A stretch of DNA of 64,000 nucleotides from positions 434,001 through 498,000 of the forward strand of contig NZ_PGGN01000003.1 of NCBI RefSeq assembly GCF_003010935.1. The letters are read 5' to 3'. Position 1 is the first letter of the stretch. Every line of letters begins with the position of its first letter. A program made the position numbers and the translations under genes. This document shows positions 23,064 through 62,716 of this stretch, in pieces. Source of the DNA: Phyllobacterium endophyticum. GTDB taxonomy: Bacteria; Pseudomonadota; Alphaproteobacteria; Rhizobiales; Rhizobiaceae. The notes below the pieces were generated by a model. The model was given only the letters and a program-made list of their open reading frames with translations. It made no database searches and was not told the DNA's origin.

Positions 23064-23194
23064 TATTGCCGGCAAGGAACCATTGCCCCGGCTCGTCGTT
23101 ACTTTCCTGTAAAAACCAGGCCGAAGAGCTACTCTTTTGTGCGGAAGCCGCGAGGCTGCCGGAGGAGAGTTCGTGCGCCGAACAGGAGGACGAA

Positions 23195-56918: not shown

Positions 56919-57548
56919 CTACGAGCCGTTTACCAGGTTGAGGATCAACTGATGTATGTTGGCGCCTTCGCTAAGTTCAGCCCGGTCGAACTCCCGGCTT
57001 CGCTGACGCTGTGCAAGCGACAGCTCGGAAAGACGCTTCGTTAAGTCTGCCTTGAGTTTACGGCAATCGCGGTCACCAGGCACCGACATACCCACCGATG
57101 CGGTCTCGATCGCCTTGACCATATCCTTGATCATAACTCCGTGCACATTCTCGTGATTCCGTATCCCGGTGATGAACGTGTCCCAATTCTTTGCCGTGTC
57201 GGGTGGTAGCCGCTCTGCCGGCTTCGGAAGGGTGTAGGTTATCGTGAGGTTCGGTCGCGCCGATACCAAAGTACAGGCCCCGCTCACGGTCTCATATTTT
57301 CTCGACCAGGTCAGCTTGAAATTGGTAAATGCGACAGTGCGCGTCTTACCGCCAACCAAAGGGCCCCTTTCGCCGATGGAAGCGTAAAGCTCGGCACCGG
57401 ATTTTCCCGCTATCGCATAGGTTTTCACCTGTTCAACGGCTTGCCAGTCGGCCCTTGCGATCGCCGGCGACAAGCTACTAAAGGCGGCGAGCAATACAGC
57501 AACTGTTTTCAAACGAACCCCCACGCCTGAATTGCACTTGGTGAACAT
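56919..57548 (-). CDS. Secreted DUF922-type predicted zinc protease
   Basis: 209 aa with signal peptide (VAVLLAAFSSLSPAIARAD, about residues 15-34). DUF922 core: WSRKYETVSGACTLVSARPN and LTITYTLPK, and the metal motif RNHENVHGVMIKDM, an HExxH-like HENVH. Members are annotated as predicted secreted Zn-dependent proteases without biochemical proof. Single gene upstream of a DUF992 gene region, on the same strand. Confidence 0.8.
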   Translation of the reverse strand: MFTKCNSGVGVRLKTVAVLLAAFSSLSPAIARADWQAVEQVKTYAIAGKSGAELYASIGERGPLVGGKTRTVAFTNFKLTWSRKYETVSGACTLVSARPNLTITYTLPKPAERLPPDTAKNWDTFITGIRNHENVHGVMIKDMVKAIETASVGMSVPGDRDCRKLKADLTKRLSELSLAQRQRSREFDRAELSEGANIHQLILNLVNGS

Positions 57549-57588
57549 GCTCCTTCCGCCGAAGCGAAAGGAGCATAAAACATAGCGT

Positions 57589-58107
57589 TTAGTTGATTGA
57601 CGCCAGCGTCATCGATGTACCGGTGGCTGCCAGGTTGAGGCCGATCTGGCCCGTCACGCTGACCGCCTGAAGGTGAATTGAGCCCGCAGTGCCGCCAAAG
57701 AGTACGTTGGTACCAACGCCAGCGCCGACTGTTGCTTCAGCGGTCGCCCCCCGATAGACGCCGGCGAGCGAGCCGTGATGATAGCCGGCCGTCGGCGCGA
57801 ATACAGCCCAAATGAGCCGGCTGCGCGTCGTGAAGCCGAGGTCGACACCCAGCTTTTTGATTGCCCCGCTATAGTGATCGGAACGTTCGCCGCTGAGGCT
57901 CGAGCGGAAGTCGCATTCGACTTCCTTGGCTGAACCCAGGACGTAACCGAGGCCACCGCCAATCGTGCAGTCGAGATAACCTATCCTGACGCCGCTACGA
58001 ACATCCTGTTCTTCATATCGTTGAACGTCTGCCGCACTTGCAGCAGTCGCGGCGGTCATGGCCAGTGACAATGTGGCAAGCGCCGTTGCAAGAGTTTTCT
58101 TCATCAT
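57589..58107 (-). CDS. Secreted DUF992-family protein
   Basis: 172 aa. Signal peptide MMKKTLATALATLSLAMTAA ending TAASAAD. The mature domain has VRIGYLDCTIGGGLGYVLGS, then VECDFRSSLSGERSDHYSGA and GATAEATVGAGVGTNVLFGG, the DUF992 pattern common and nearly restricted to alphaproteobacteria. Function unknown, probably outer envelope. ATG 58107 follows GAGAAGGAGATA. Confidence 0.86.
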   Translation of the reverse strand: MMKKTLATALATLSLAMTAATAASAADVQRYEEQDVRSGVRIGYLDCTIGGGLGYVLGSAKEVECDFRSSLSGERSDHYSGAIKKLGVDLGFTTRSRLIWAVFAPTAGYHHGSLAGVYRGATAEATVGAGVGTNVLFGGTAGSIHLQAVSVTGQIGLNLAATGTSMTLASIN

Positions 58108-58325
58108 TATCTCCTTCTCAGGTTGTGATAAGTTCGTCGCAAATCGGCTCTTTAGCCAACAAGAATGTATGCCCCCTCGCAAGCGAGATGAAGCAGCGTA
58201 GACGTTGATCCGGTTACGAGGGTGCAAGTAACAGAGCGACCACAGTTCAACGCCCATTGGGACATTTTGAAGGCGTTCGGGCACATGTTCGTTGGCCCTT
58301 TCCGGTATCCACGATTGCATCAAGC

Positions 58326-59405
58326 TCATTGCGCGGCCTTATTGGTGAAATGAGCATTTCCTAGCCCTGTACCGATAGTCAGAACGCCCCAATGAGCAAC
58401 GTCCCGCATGAAAGGCACTTGCGATAGCCCCTGCACAACCGCGTCGTTATGCATGATAATGAAGGTTGAATGATCGCCAATTTTTGGAATGGCATCGGCA
58501 AGTGCCTCCGGCAGATTGAAGTGCTTGCTTTCCCAATTGCCACCGGGCAGATTCTGGCCCCCGCGCGCTATGGAGCCATCAGGTTCGATGATACCCGGGC
58601 ATCCGATTCCTATTACGGGTGCTGGATCAAGATCGCTCTTTCGGGCTTTGGCAATGAGTCGTTCTATCATGTCGACGAGGCGCTCTAGGGTAGCGCTCCG
58701 TTTGGGCGCATCGTCAGCGTGCCTCCACAGTTCGGACTTCCAAACCTTGGCCTTCGACAGATCCACCTCTTCCTTCAGTCGGGTCTCGACGATGCCAGCC
58801 CGAATGTTCGTGCCTCCTATATCTACCGCTATGATCGAATCGTGGCCCTGGAGCATCCAGCTCGGCATGAGATGGGCAGCGCCGATAAGACCCGCCTCGT
58901 CCGGGTGATGAACGATAGGCACAAGCTCGATGTTCAAGCCCTCCGCCTTCATCAATACCATTGCGCGGGCGATTGCGAGTTCTCCGAAAGCACTGTCCTT
59001 CAACCCTCCCCCGACAACGACCCGTTCCGTTTTTTTCCAGCTTTTATCTTTCAAATAGCGGGTGAGCACCTTTGCCAGTTCGCCGGCGAAATCATCAACT
59101 GCTCCGAGAACAAGGGCCGAAGCCTCCTTGTCCTTTCCCTTTATGAGCGCATCGATCTGCTTCTTGGATAAATCCTCTGTCGGGATGTCTCCCAGAGGAT
59201 CGTCGCCGCCACCCTTCTTCAAACGTTTGCGCCAGTCGTCAAGCTTTTGCTGGAAAGCCGACTTGCTGGCCTTGTCACCGATGAAGCCATCTTTGTCACG
59301 CAGCATGAGATTGTAACCGTCTACGACCACCGAAGGCAGCGATGCAGCACCGTGGGCAATCGGCGGAGCATTCTCCGGCGGTGATTTACGTTCGCTTTTT
59401 GCCAT
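58326..59405 (-). CDS. ROK/ASKHA-fold sugar kinase-like protein with swapped halves (circular permutation)
   Basis: 359 aa from ATG 59405. ROK motifs are all present but in an unusual order. The C-terminal-lobe adenosine motif VVVGGG is at 129-134 and the closing GLIGAAHL at 172-179. Only after that come the normally N-terminal phosphate-1 motif DIGGTN (195-200), then GIGCPG (266-271), the catalytic Asp in MHNDAVV (321), and phosphate-2 GTGLGNA (345-351). The protein ends eight residues later, where a normal ROK protein would have its zinc motif and second lobe. The zinc motif CxCGxxGC is not seen. Probably a kinase or sugar sensor with permuted topology. It stands alone on the - strand. Confidence 0.8.
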   Translation of the reverse strand: MAKSERKSPPENAPPIAHGAASLPSVVVDGYNLMLRDKDGFIGDKASKSAFQQKLDDWRKRLKKGGGDDPLGDIPTEDLSKKQIDALIKGKDKEASALVLGAVDDFAGELAKVLTRYLKDKSWKKTERVVVGGGLKDSAFGELAIARAMVLMKAEGLNIELVPIVHHPDEAGLIGAAHLMPSWMLQGHDSIIAVDIGGTNIRAGIVETRLKEEVDLSKAKVWKSELWRHADDAPKRSATLERLVDMIERLIAKARKSDLDPAPVIGIGCPGIIEPDGSIARGGQNLPGGNWESKHFNLPEALADAIPKIGDHSTFIIMHNDAVVQGLSQVPFMRDVAHWGVLTIGTGLGNAHFTNKAAQ

Positions 59406-59580
59406 GCTTTCCCCTTCGCAAGGATAAGTCTCGAGTGAGGGGAACGCGACTCCAGAGGTGAAGTTCCGGGCGAACTCTGCAGACGTGGCGAACTCCATTG
59501 CGGCTGTTGGAACCTCGATAAATGTATATCGTTGACGGACACAATATCCCAAGCCCTCCGCTGCAAGATGGATTGCAACA

Positions 59581-60102
59581 ATGAAACGACTTGCTTTATT
59601 GGTACCGGTCATCGCTATGGTGACGCTCACAGCGCAACCGTCTCGTGCTAATGAAGGTGTGTTCCTTCGCTCCCTCGCAGGTGCCTGGGCCGGCACGGGT
59701 ACGGTGAAGGTGCGCACGGACGCTAGACCAATCAAAGTCAGGTGCCGTTTTGAATCCACCGCGAACACGTCGTCCCTCGATCTAAACGGCAAATGCACGG
59801 GATTGATCTTGATATCACGTGCGATCAACTCGCATCTGGTATCAGGTGGCCATAGCAGGTACACGGGAACTTATACTGGTGCAGGTACCGGAGTGGCCGG
59901 TCTGATGGGAACGCGGCGCGGCGACGCCATATACCTTGAAGTACGCTGGGCCAAGAATGTTAACGGCGACCGCAGTGCCCAGATGATATTGCAGAAGATT
60001 GGCGACGACGGTTTGAAGCTCAGCACGAAAGACGTCGATCCTAAATCCGGCAAACTTGTCACCACCAGCGAGATCAACTTGCGGCGGAGCGCACCACGAT
60101 AG
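59581..60102 (+). CDS. Secreted hypothetical protein
   Basis: 173 aa with a clear signal peptide (MKRLALLVPVIAMVTLTAQP, cleavage near SRA-NEG). The rest is predicted beta-rich: LAGAWAGTGTVKVRTDARP, RCRFESTANTSSLDLNGKCT, GLMGTRRGDAIYLEVRWA. Similar small periplasmic proteins occur widely in rhizobia with no known role. Divergent from the permuted ROK gene, 175 bp apart. Confidence 0.7.
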   Translation: MKRLALLVPVIAMVTLTAQPSRANEGVFLRSLAGAWAGTGTVKVRTDARPIKVRCRFESTANTSSLDLNGKCTGLILISRAINSHLVSGGHSRYTGTYTGAGTGVAGLMGTRRGDAIYLEVRWAKNVNGDRSAQMILQKIGDDGLKLSTKDVDPKSGKLVTTSEINLRRSAPR

Positions 60103-60205: not shown

Positions 60206-61702
60206 TTGAACTTGATTCAGGTTGAACCTAACTCTGAAACGTCCGTCAGGGATACTGGATCGATATTGAAGGCTGGCGACACTGTCTGGCGTGTTGTTCA
60301 TGCCGGCAGGGTTGCGATGGTCGTCGATGCTGCAGATTATTTTCGCCATCTCGAAAGAGCCTTCGCAAACGCCCGTCGCTCCATCCTGATCGCCGGATGG
60401 GACTTCAACGGCAGCATCTCTCTCCAACCCGATCGGCCTGGCACCGAACAGCTCGGACAATATCTCAGGCGATTGGTCGAAGAACGTCCGGAACTGACAA
60501 TTCACGTCTTGGTATGGGCGTACGGGCCGATCTATTCCTCCAGGCAAATGCGCGTGTTCCCAAAGGAACCATGGGCGGACCATCCAAGGATCCATATCTG
60601 CTACGATCGTCATCACCCCTGGCGCGGTTGCCATCACCAGAAGATTGTCTGCATCGATGATGCAATGGCGTTCTGCGGGGGCATAGACCTGACAGTCCAT
60701 CGATGGGATACTCGCGACCATCTTGCCATCGACCGGCGGCGAAAAGATCTAGGCGGCGGGCTCTACACGCCCGTGCATGATGTGCAGCTTGCCTTGGAGG
60801 GTGAAGCGGCCAGCGCCTTGGGCGATCTTCTGCGCGAGCGCTGGCGGGCATGCAAGGGCGATAGGCTCGAACCAGCGAGCGCAGACGGTGAGTATTGGCC
60901 CGATGAACTAGAACCCGACCTTCGCAATATCCCAGTGGGTATATCCCGGACGATACCTTCGTCTTTAGCCCGCAGAAACATTGGCGAAATTGAGAAGTTG
61001 AACGAGGCAGCGCTAAAAGCCGCAAATTATCTCATCTACATTGAGACTCAGTATCTGACATGTCGAAGGATTGGACACATTCTGGCTCGAAAGCTGCTGG
61101 ACCCTCGGGGGCCAGAGGTCGTTATTGTTGTCCCCCAACAATGCCATGGCGGGGTGCTGGAGCAGATATTCATGGGAGGCAACCGCAATCGCCTCGTACG
61201 CAGCCTTCGCCGAGCTGACATTCACGACCGGCTGCGCGTCGTCTATCCGGTCGTTGTTGACAAAAATGGCCACGATGAAATCCCAATCTTCGTCCATTCC
61301 AAACTCATGATTATCGACAACTGGTTTGCACGGATTGGCTCATCCAATCTGAACAACCGTTCGCGTGGGATGGATACCGAGTGTGACGTCTCTTTCGAAG
61401 CGCGAACACCAGGAGAGCAAAAAGCTGTCGAACGAATGTGTCATGACCTGCTGGCGGAACATTTGGGCATGTCCCGGGACGCGGTCAGCGCCTACGTCGA
61501 CAAACATCATTCACTAGCCAAGCTGCTCGATCAGCAACGTGGCAGCAGGCGCCGATTGAAGCCAGTCAGAATTGGTTCATCAGACGGTCCTGAGGCTCCG
61601 GTTCCGCTAACAACGATTGTCGATCCCAAGAAGCCGCTTCGACCTATAAGATATCTCAGGAAACTACTGGAAATCGTTGGAGCCAAATCAGCCAGCAAAT
61701 GA
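60206..61702 (+). CDS. Phospholipase D-family protein (cardiolipin synthase-like)
   Basis: 498 aa with two HKD motifs. HKD1: HHQKIVCIDDAMAFCGGIDL near residue 143. HKD2: HSKLMIIDNWFARIGSSNLN near residue 363, followed by NRSRGMDTECD. Such enzymes transfer phosphatidyl groups (cardiolipin synthesis) or hydrolyse phospholipids. No N-terminal membrane helices, unlike ClsA. The TTG start at 60206 is the best available; no ATG lies near the conserved beginning. A divergent YbhN gene and an endonuclease-like gene follow, a combination often seen with this PLD subgroup. Confidence 0.88.
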   Translation: MNLIQVEPNSETSVRDTGSILKAGDTVWRVVHAGRVAMVVDAADYFRHLERAFANARRSILIAGWDFNGSISLQPDRPGTEQLGQYLRRLVEERPELTIHVLVWAYGPIYSSRQMRVFPKEPWADHPRIHICYDRHHPWRGCHHQKIVCIDDAMAFCGGIDLTVHRWDTRDHLAIDRRRKDLGGGLYTPVHDVQLALEGEAASALGDLLRERWRACKGDRLEPASADGEYWPDELEPDLRNIPVGISRTIPSSLARRNIGEIEKLNEAALKAANYLIYIETQYLTCRRIGHILARKLLDPRGPEVVIVVPQQCHGGVLEQIFMGGNRNRLVRSLRRADIHDRLRVVYPVVVDKNGHDEIPIFVHSKLMIIDNWFARIGSSNLNNRSRGMDTECDVSFEARTPGEQKAVERMCHDLLAEHLGMSRDAVSAYVDKHHSLAKLLDQQRGSRRRLKPVRIGSSDGPEAPVPLTTIVDPKKPLRPIRYLRKLLEIVGAKSASK

Positions 61703-62626: not shown

Positions 62627-62716
62627 TCGCTTCCTCGTCGCGCGGTATGGTCCCGTTGACTGGATGGGAACGGAAGTACGGCAAGGAAGTTCCCCTAAGA
62701 ATAAGCCAGGAGCTGG

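Follow-up and report, generated by a model that had tools for sequence, protein, structure and literature searches.

A conserved ROK-family protein of Hyphomicrobiales with a very probable circular permutation

INTRODUCTION

Proteins of the ROK family are recognized by motifs named phosphate-1, catalytic ND, phosphate-2, and adenosine, and ordinary members also carry the zinc-binding signature CxCGxxGCxE. In the textbook route to a circular permutation, a gene is duplicated in tandem and the outer halves of the pair are then lost. Closest to the protein reported here are the ROK-family glucokinases (PF00480, the set ending in ...D.AGLLGAA), which have DIGGTN, GxGxPG, ND, GTGxG, and GG(G) in common with it and are collinear with it over 296 columns after rotation; it differs from them in its rotated order, its lack of the zinc cysteines, and an identity of about 22 to 23% in the profile alignment. 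NanK and the human GNE kinase domain are not permuted, and about half of the model of our protein superposes on this group in sequence order, 2yhw being the ROK entry with the top TM-score by query among the 50 structural matches listed. Tandem hexokinases I and II share the ASKHA fold, and several entries align with our protein over about 400 columns; they consist, however, of two whole copies in ordinary order, whereas our protein would be one permuted copy.

The available text of a kinase classification, in which the word ROK is absent, states in general terms that circular permutation may relate the cores found within one fold group (PMC1079889), and that of a 2025 review of glucose kinases uses ROK 29 times and “permut” not at all (PMC12696579). 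No description of a permuted ROK protein, glucokinase, or ASKHA kinase was found among the papers listed in our searches of an open-access library, and permutation in the ROK family is apparently undescribed there. As to mechanism in general, the available text of PMC10465942 describes deprotonation of the sugar hydroxyl by an aspartate. On the regulatory side, the EcfG1 promoter motif of Rhizobium etli, GGAAC-N16-CGTT in the available text of PMC3892343, is shared by the gene studied here, whose regulation we infer from sequence.

RESULTS

Gene organization and motif order

The window analyzed is a 64,000-nucleotide stretch of Phyllobacterium endophyticum DNA (contig NZ_PGGN01000003.1). The gene lies on the minus strand, a detail absent from the initial annotation, with its ATG at 59405 and a stop codon ending at 58326 (Table 1). 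The motif positions proposed there hold, VVVGGG being found at residues 129 to 134, DIGGTN at 195 to 200, GIGCPG at 266 to 271, ND at 320 to 321, and GTGLG at 345 to 349; the closing GAA motif is GLIGAA, residues 172 to 177. The N-terminal segment, with lobe 2 strand 3, helices, VVVGGG, and GLIGAA, is the normal closing part of a ROK protein, and the C-terminal segment, with DIGGTN, GIGCPG, QNLPGGNW, ND, and GTGLG, is the normal opening part and ends after lobe 2 strand 2. The closing motifs stand ahead of the opening ones, as had been claimed, and do so in all 68 full-length members of the family described below. In place of the linear order phosphate-1...phosphate-2...GGG...GAA, an order was found that rotation at residues 185 to 190 converts back to the usual one; the phosphate-1, catalytic ND, phosphate-2, and adenosine motif cores are all present and invariant in 68/68.

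Table 1. Coordinates of the features in the 64,000-nucleotide window
Feature	Coordinates	Strand	Remarks
ROK-type kinase gene, very probably circularly permuted	58326..59405	minus	359 aa + stop; Pfam ROK 35.6 bits
N-terminal segment, residues ~16-189	58839..59360	minus	aligns to end of ordinary ROK profiles; model helices/strands
C-terminal segment, residues 190-359	58329..58838	minus	Pfam ROK profile 2-142 on residues 192-356; profile alignment; model strands 339-344, 348-355
Predicted sigma-EcfG-type promoter motif GGAAC-N16-CGTT	59443..59467	minus	5' end 62 nt before start codon

Databases label the protein “ROK family protein.” Its whole-protein score with Pfam ROK (PF00480) lies above the cut-off of 22.9 bits, and the same gene scored 23.1 bits in a genome-wide six-frame search with this profile. 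When the chain was cut at residue 252, the best Pfam ROK stretch became native residues 47 to 180, on profile positions 180 to 291. The sole NCBIfam match to the first half is the NanK model, of which positions 216 to 285 of 288 align with residues 109 to 179 (a weak match, with an E value of 8e-5, far below the curated cut-off). One half of the protein thus corresponds to the end of the ROK family and the other to its start, in reversed order, so that the ROK end stands before its beginning.

Conservation and spread of the family

A first scan of reference genomes yielded 31 relatives from Phyllobacterium, Rhizobium, Shinella, and Neorhizobium that align along the chain with 58 to 79% identity. 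In a class-level search of whole genomes, 9 of 190 matched, eight over the full chain (own genome included) and one, G050, weakly; among near relatives, 11 of 59 genomes matched, including 8 of the 20 from Phyllobacterium itself. A sample of the phylum gave 34 matching genomes out of 398, of which 22 match over the full chain at 45 to 100% identity (5 of them outside the class) and the other 12 match weakly, within about residues 151 to 357; L074, the single weak match inspected, is an ordinary glucokinase-like ROK gene. Plasmids carry the gene as well, with 206 matches in 72,556 records, mainly from Rhizobium (111) and Sinorhizobium (79); 204 of these cover at least 80% of the query, and the annotations among the 60 rows listed read “ROK family protein” or “hypothetical protein.” Several Phyllobacterium genomes share one protein with P. 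bourgognense, P. trifolii, and others (duplicates), and the fetched sequences were reduced to 69 distinct proteins, 68 of them full length. Two genomes of the same order (G446 and G430) have two copies each of the permuted gene, and the gene at locus L037 (G122:C81) contains an in-frame stop before GTGLG, reflecting either decay or a sequencing error.

The permuted order was detected by a first regular expression in 58 of the 68 members; the other ten have GGSN for GGTN with the order unchanged, the motif of L040 having been read from its sequence and not by the expression. All 68 chains end 5 to 38 residues past GTGLGNA. Residues H18, D44, G132 to G134, D195, G197, G198, N200, N285, N320, D321, G345, T346, G347, and G349 are invariant in 68/68, and dN/dS is about 0.06 to 0.11 in four of five pairs, the fifth being saturated. 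The gene is under purifying selection and, far from being peculiar to a single genome, belongs to a family conserved in Hyphomicrobiales, with members in other classes of the phylum in 5 of the 398 genomes sampled.

The initial annotation had named a C-terminal lobe lost through a frameshift as the outcome that would speak against it and had proposed a search for homologs with the same motif order; that check has been run, and all 68 distinct full-length relatives agree. A crude scan around these 68 members found no lobe lost by frameshift. In frame upstream, the pattern was matched once only, by a short “LNGGTKF” in L143, with no lobe, and the nearest in-frame upstream stops are only 2 codons away; in the 600 nt downstream, GGG occurs in 9/68 members, six times in one neighboring gene (annotated DUF992 in Phyllobacterium zundukense), and the remaining three sequences do not resemble a ROK lobe by eye. 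A frameshift or lost C-lobe is ruled out by this flank scan and by the fact that all 68 relatives keep the permuted order and end shortly after GTGLGNA. The best Pfam stretch covers the C-terminal half only, which could also suggest that the sequencing or the assembly is faulty, or that a ROK gene was truncated and fused by chance to an unrelated N terminus; such an origin is refuted by the conservation of the full chain and has a negligible probability, as the 31 relatives come from named genomes and align along the chain, query coverage is high in nearly all plasmid records (204/206), ROK profiles match the first half with their end portions, and dN/dS is low.

Rotation restores collinearity with ordinary ROK proteins

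The 68-member profile was rotated at 20 cuts and compared by hhalign with 34 ordinary ROK proteins (17 glucokinase-like, 17 others). In native order, the score against the joint ordinary profile was 92.6 over 136 columns. The scan reached its maximum at cuts 185 and 190 (135.6 and 135.9), where 294 columns cover positions 2 to 301 of the 309 in the ordinary profile; cut 180, beside the optimum, scored 133.0, and the other 16 rotated cuts scored 72 to 116. Rotation raised the score against the 17 other ROK proteins from 50.8 to 75.0. When only the glucokinase-like set was used, the gain lay in the aligned columns, which rose from 148 to 296, with almost no change in score (112.8 to 114.5). Scores of the rotated chain with Pfam in HMMER gained nearly nothing (35.6 to 36.1 bits; 8 of 10 rotations), because both stretches are summed either way; they are uninformative on the cut point, and the hhalign profile comparison was therefore used. 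A profile search of the PDB showed no gain from rotation either, the best E value being 0.0002 for the native order (24-row profile) versus 0.005 for the rotated one (7-row profile).

In the resulting residue map, Asp321 coincides with the catalytic Asp, and the motifs GTGLG, VVVGGG, and DEAGLIGAA are matched to GTGxG, the GG(G) loop, and DxAGLLGAA, respectively. GFIGD-KAS is aligned to the GCxE-x-x-AS stretch, which puts Asp44 in the place of the usual Glu, and His18 lies two columns off the GH histidine. The cysteines of the ordinary ROK zinc site have no counterpart in this map: where L074 exemplifies the signature CxCGxxGCxE, the aligned segment here reads LMLRDKDGFIGD, and the only cysteine of the chain (residue 269) is outside the region.

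Predicted structure and position of the new termini

An AlphaFold model generated from 32 sequences has a pLDDT of 84.0 and a pTM of 0.83, and its elements follow each other as expected for a permutation; the five models of this protein span pLDDT values of 68.8 to 84.0, and the stretches under 50 are residues 1 to 12 and 284 to 295 (the QNLPGGNW loop). A second model, of a Rhizobium populisoli relative (pLDDT of 73.6, pTM of 0.76), has an identical element order, and in both models this order reads as a rotated two-lobe ASKHA fold. Lobe 1 would consist of strands 190 to 196, 201 to 207, and 220 to 227, helix 236 to 256, strands 261 to 269 and 279 to 281, helix 298 to 305, strand 315 to 320, and helix 321 to 327. 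Lobe 2 would be contributed by both ends of the chain, its C-terminal part by strands 339 to 344 and 348 to 355 and its N-terminal part by strand 26 to 31, helices up to residue 118, strand 128 to 132, helix 139 to 154, strand 160 to 163, and helix 168 to 177. Two details of the initial annotation need correction on this basis. It had placed the new termini between the lobes, whereas the model elements put them rather inside lobe 2, in the loop between its strands 2 and 3; it had also let the chain stop directly after phosphate-2, beyond which the predicted model has strand 348 to 355.

Foldseek, which keeps the sequence order, listed ASKHA proteins as matches, with low TM-scores, as expected for a sequential aligner. 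The alignment with 2yhw covers 177 columns (about half of the model) at 3.3 Å, and its TM-score by query, 0.35, is the highest among the 50 matches listed. Tandem hexokinases are among the matches with the lowest E values; their alignments span about 400 columns with RMSD values of 31 to 37 Å, which we read as the two halves of the permutant matching different repeats. An alignment in plain order was also obtained with MreB chains (about 300 columns, about 7 Å), so the Foldseek pattern is consistent with a permutation and is not proof of it. The circular permutation of the ROK/ASKHA fold put forward in the initial annotation is supported by the motif order in 68/68 members, the rotation scan, and the element order of two predicted models, and the protein is very probably a true circular permutation of a ROK protein.

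Origin of the permuted form

A rotated profile (E value threshold of 0.001) found no close relative in ordinary order among 181 genomes of the class; 7/181 matched, and all 14 matches are the two halves of permuted genes. G050 contains, on its contig C99, two ordinary-order ROK-like genes (L041 and L042) head to tail and three bases apart, with 40 to 46% mutual identity; the zinc cysteines are absent from them by eye, and L042 is split in two frames. As a candidate ancestor or fossil duplication this pair was set aside, being no closer to the permuted family than common glucokinases are (28 versus up to 33 bits with the rotated profile). In a tree of 18 of the 68 members and 36 ordinary rows, from which the own-genome ROK proteins L083 and L086 were left out, L041 groups with the permuted proteins (99/98), but its branch of 6.4 was flagged as unsure by the program. 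A single, weakly supported branch (72/70) separates the permuted from the ordinary rows; with the permuted proteins on one side of it, the tree is consistent with one origin.

Putative active site and function

The ROK chain would in effect have been joined at its old ends, the old C terminus (...DEAGLIGAAHLMPSWMLQGHDS...) running directly into the old N terminus (...IIAVDIGGTN...), and opened anew in the second RNase H-like lobe, at the loop that links strands 2 and 3; once folded, the protein would remain a two-lobed ASKHA kinase of the ordinary kind. DIGGTN (phosphate-1), GTGLG (phosphate-2), and VVVGGG (adenosine) would bind ATP, and Asp321 would serve as the base that takes the proton from the sugar hydroxyl; by alignment, Asn285, Asn320, His18, and Asp44 would line the sugar side. 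The invariant nucleotide-binding and catalytic residues, together with the low dN/dS, argue for a functional protein, for which a kinase is the simplest reading. A hexose as the substrate, most likely glucose or a near relative, and ATP as the donor are our guesses. We consider it probable that the protein is a zinc-free circularly permuted ROK kinase phosphorylating a hexose with ATP in the general stress response, of which we infer the activity, substrate, and regulation.

The genome itself holds seven other ROK matches and one ordinary glucokinase. The need for one more is therefore not evident, which counts against this assignment; it also makes a stress-specific role likelier than a housekeeping one. 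With other candidate glucose kinases at hand, a patchy occurrence (8/20 genomes of the genus), and a QNLPGGNW loop modeled with less certainty than any other inner part, the permuted protein might no longer be a sugar kinase and instead bind ATP and/or sugar as a stress-linked regulator or act on a non-sugar substrate. We hold this to be unlikely, given that Asp321, N285, N320, H18, and D44 are unchanged in all 68 members and that Pfam found no DNA-binding domain. Polyphosphate might also replace ATP as the donor, as in short polyphosphate glucokinases; the absent zinc cysteines and weak matches to the polyphosphate-glucose phosphotransferase model NF045942 (E value of 0.0011) and to 1woq (E value of 0.14) point that way, but better matches come from other models of ROK kinases (ROK_glcA, 4e-6; NanK, 3e-5), and such a donor seems quite improbable.

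A predicted sigma-EcfG-type promoter and the gene neighborhood

GGAAC-N16/17-CGTT occurs within 300 nt upstream of the gene in 43/69 distinct members, in 42/69 at positions –54 to –78; these 69 promoter rows are related, and the 42 are not 42 independent events. In 200 mononucleotide shuffles, the mean number of members with the motif was 0.1 and the maximum was 1, and across both strands of loci L001 to L031, 29 of 32 motif sites are those of this gene itself. The strict motif is missing in 26/69 members, including those from Shinella (3), 12/14 of families f172 and f2 from the same order, and 5/5 from other classes. A predicted promoter of the sigma-EcfG type is thus conserved upstream of the permuted kinase gene, which would place it in the sigma-EcfG general stress regulon. 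By term counts, a study of the ECF sigma factors in Sinorhizobium meliloti (PMC6180224) names ROK protein, sugar kinase, and glucokinase nowhere in its main text, and “ROK” is absent from the available main text of PMC3892343.

The trehalose phosphatase gene otsB adjoins the gene in 25 of the 39 loci scanned (22 Rhizobium, 3 Shinella) and does not adjoin it in the window. Under stress, for example, the protein might re-phosphorylate the glucose that becomes free when trehalose or another reserve sugar is broken down. Downstream of the permuted kinase gene, Phyllobacterium zundukense has DUF992 and DUF922 genes, and the two frames that follow it in the window (56919 to 58329, minus strand) are by position apparently the same genes. 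Further GGAAC-N16/17-CGTT sites lie at 59509 to 59533 (plus), 62669 to 62693 (minus), and 23076 to 23100 (plus), giving 4 sites in the window versus 1.05 expected by shuffles, with 0/100 shuffles reaching 4. The first of them stands about 50 nt before a divergent 173-aa frame (59581 to 60102), and given these extra sites the region from 59 to 63 kb may be a small general-stress cluster. A 498-aa frame with HxK motifs (60206 to 61702, plus strand) presumably resembles phospholipase D/cardiolipin synthase.

DISCUSSION

In its widest form, our proposal is a widespread, unrecognized branch of natural ROK/ASKHA permutants, fixed once, opened within the active-site lobe, and taken over by the general stress response of Alphaproteobacteria, where it would act as a distinct hexose kinase whose new termini near the nucleotide cleft may tune lobe closure; we give this proposal an even chance of being right. 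If true, the ASKHA hinge machine would work with its chain opened inside a lobe, across a large bacterial group, and studies of folding and of the hinge could draw on the family as a ready-made collection of natural permutants. The permutation would also account for automatic annotation detecting mainly one half of the domain. For Rhizobium, Sinorhizobium, and their kin, the family points to an uncharacterized, possibly stress-induced sugar kinase, a rearranged form that has been kept in many soil and root-associated bacteria.
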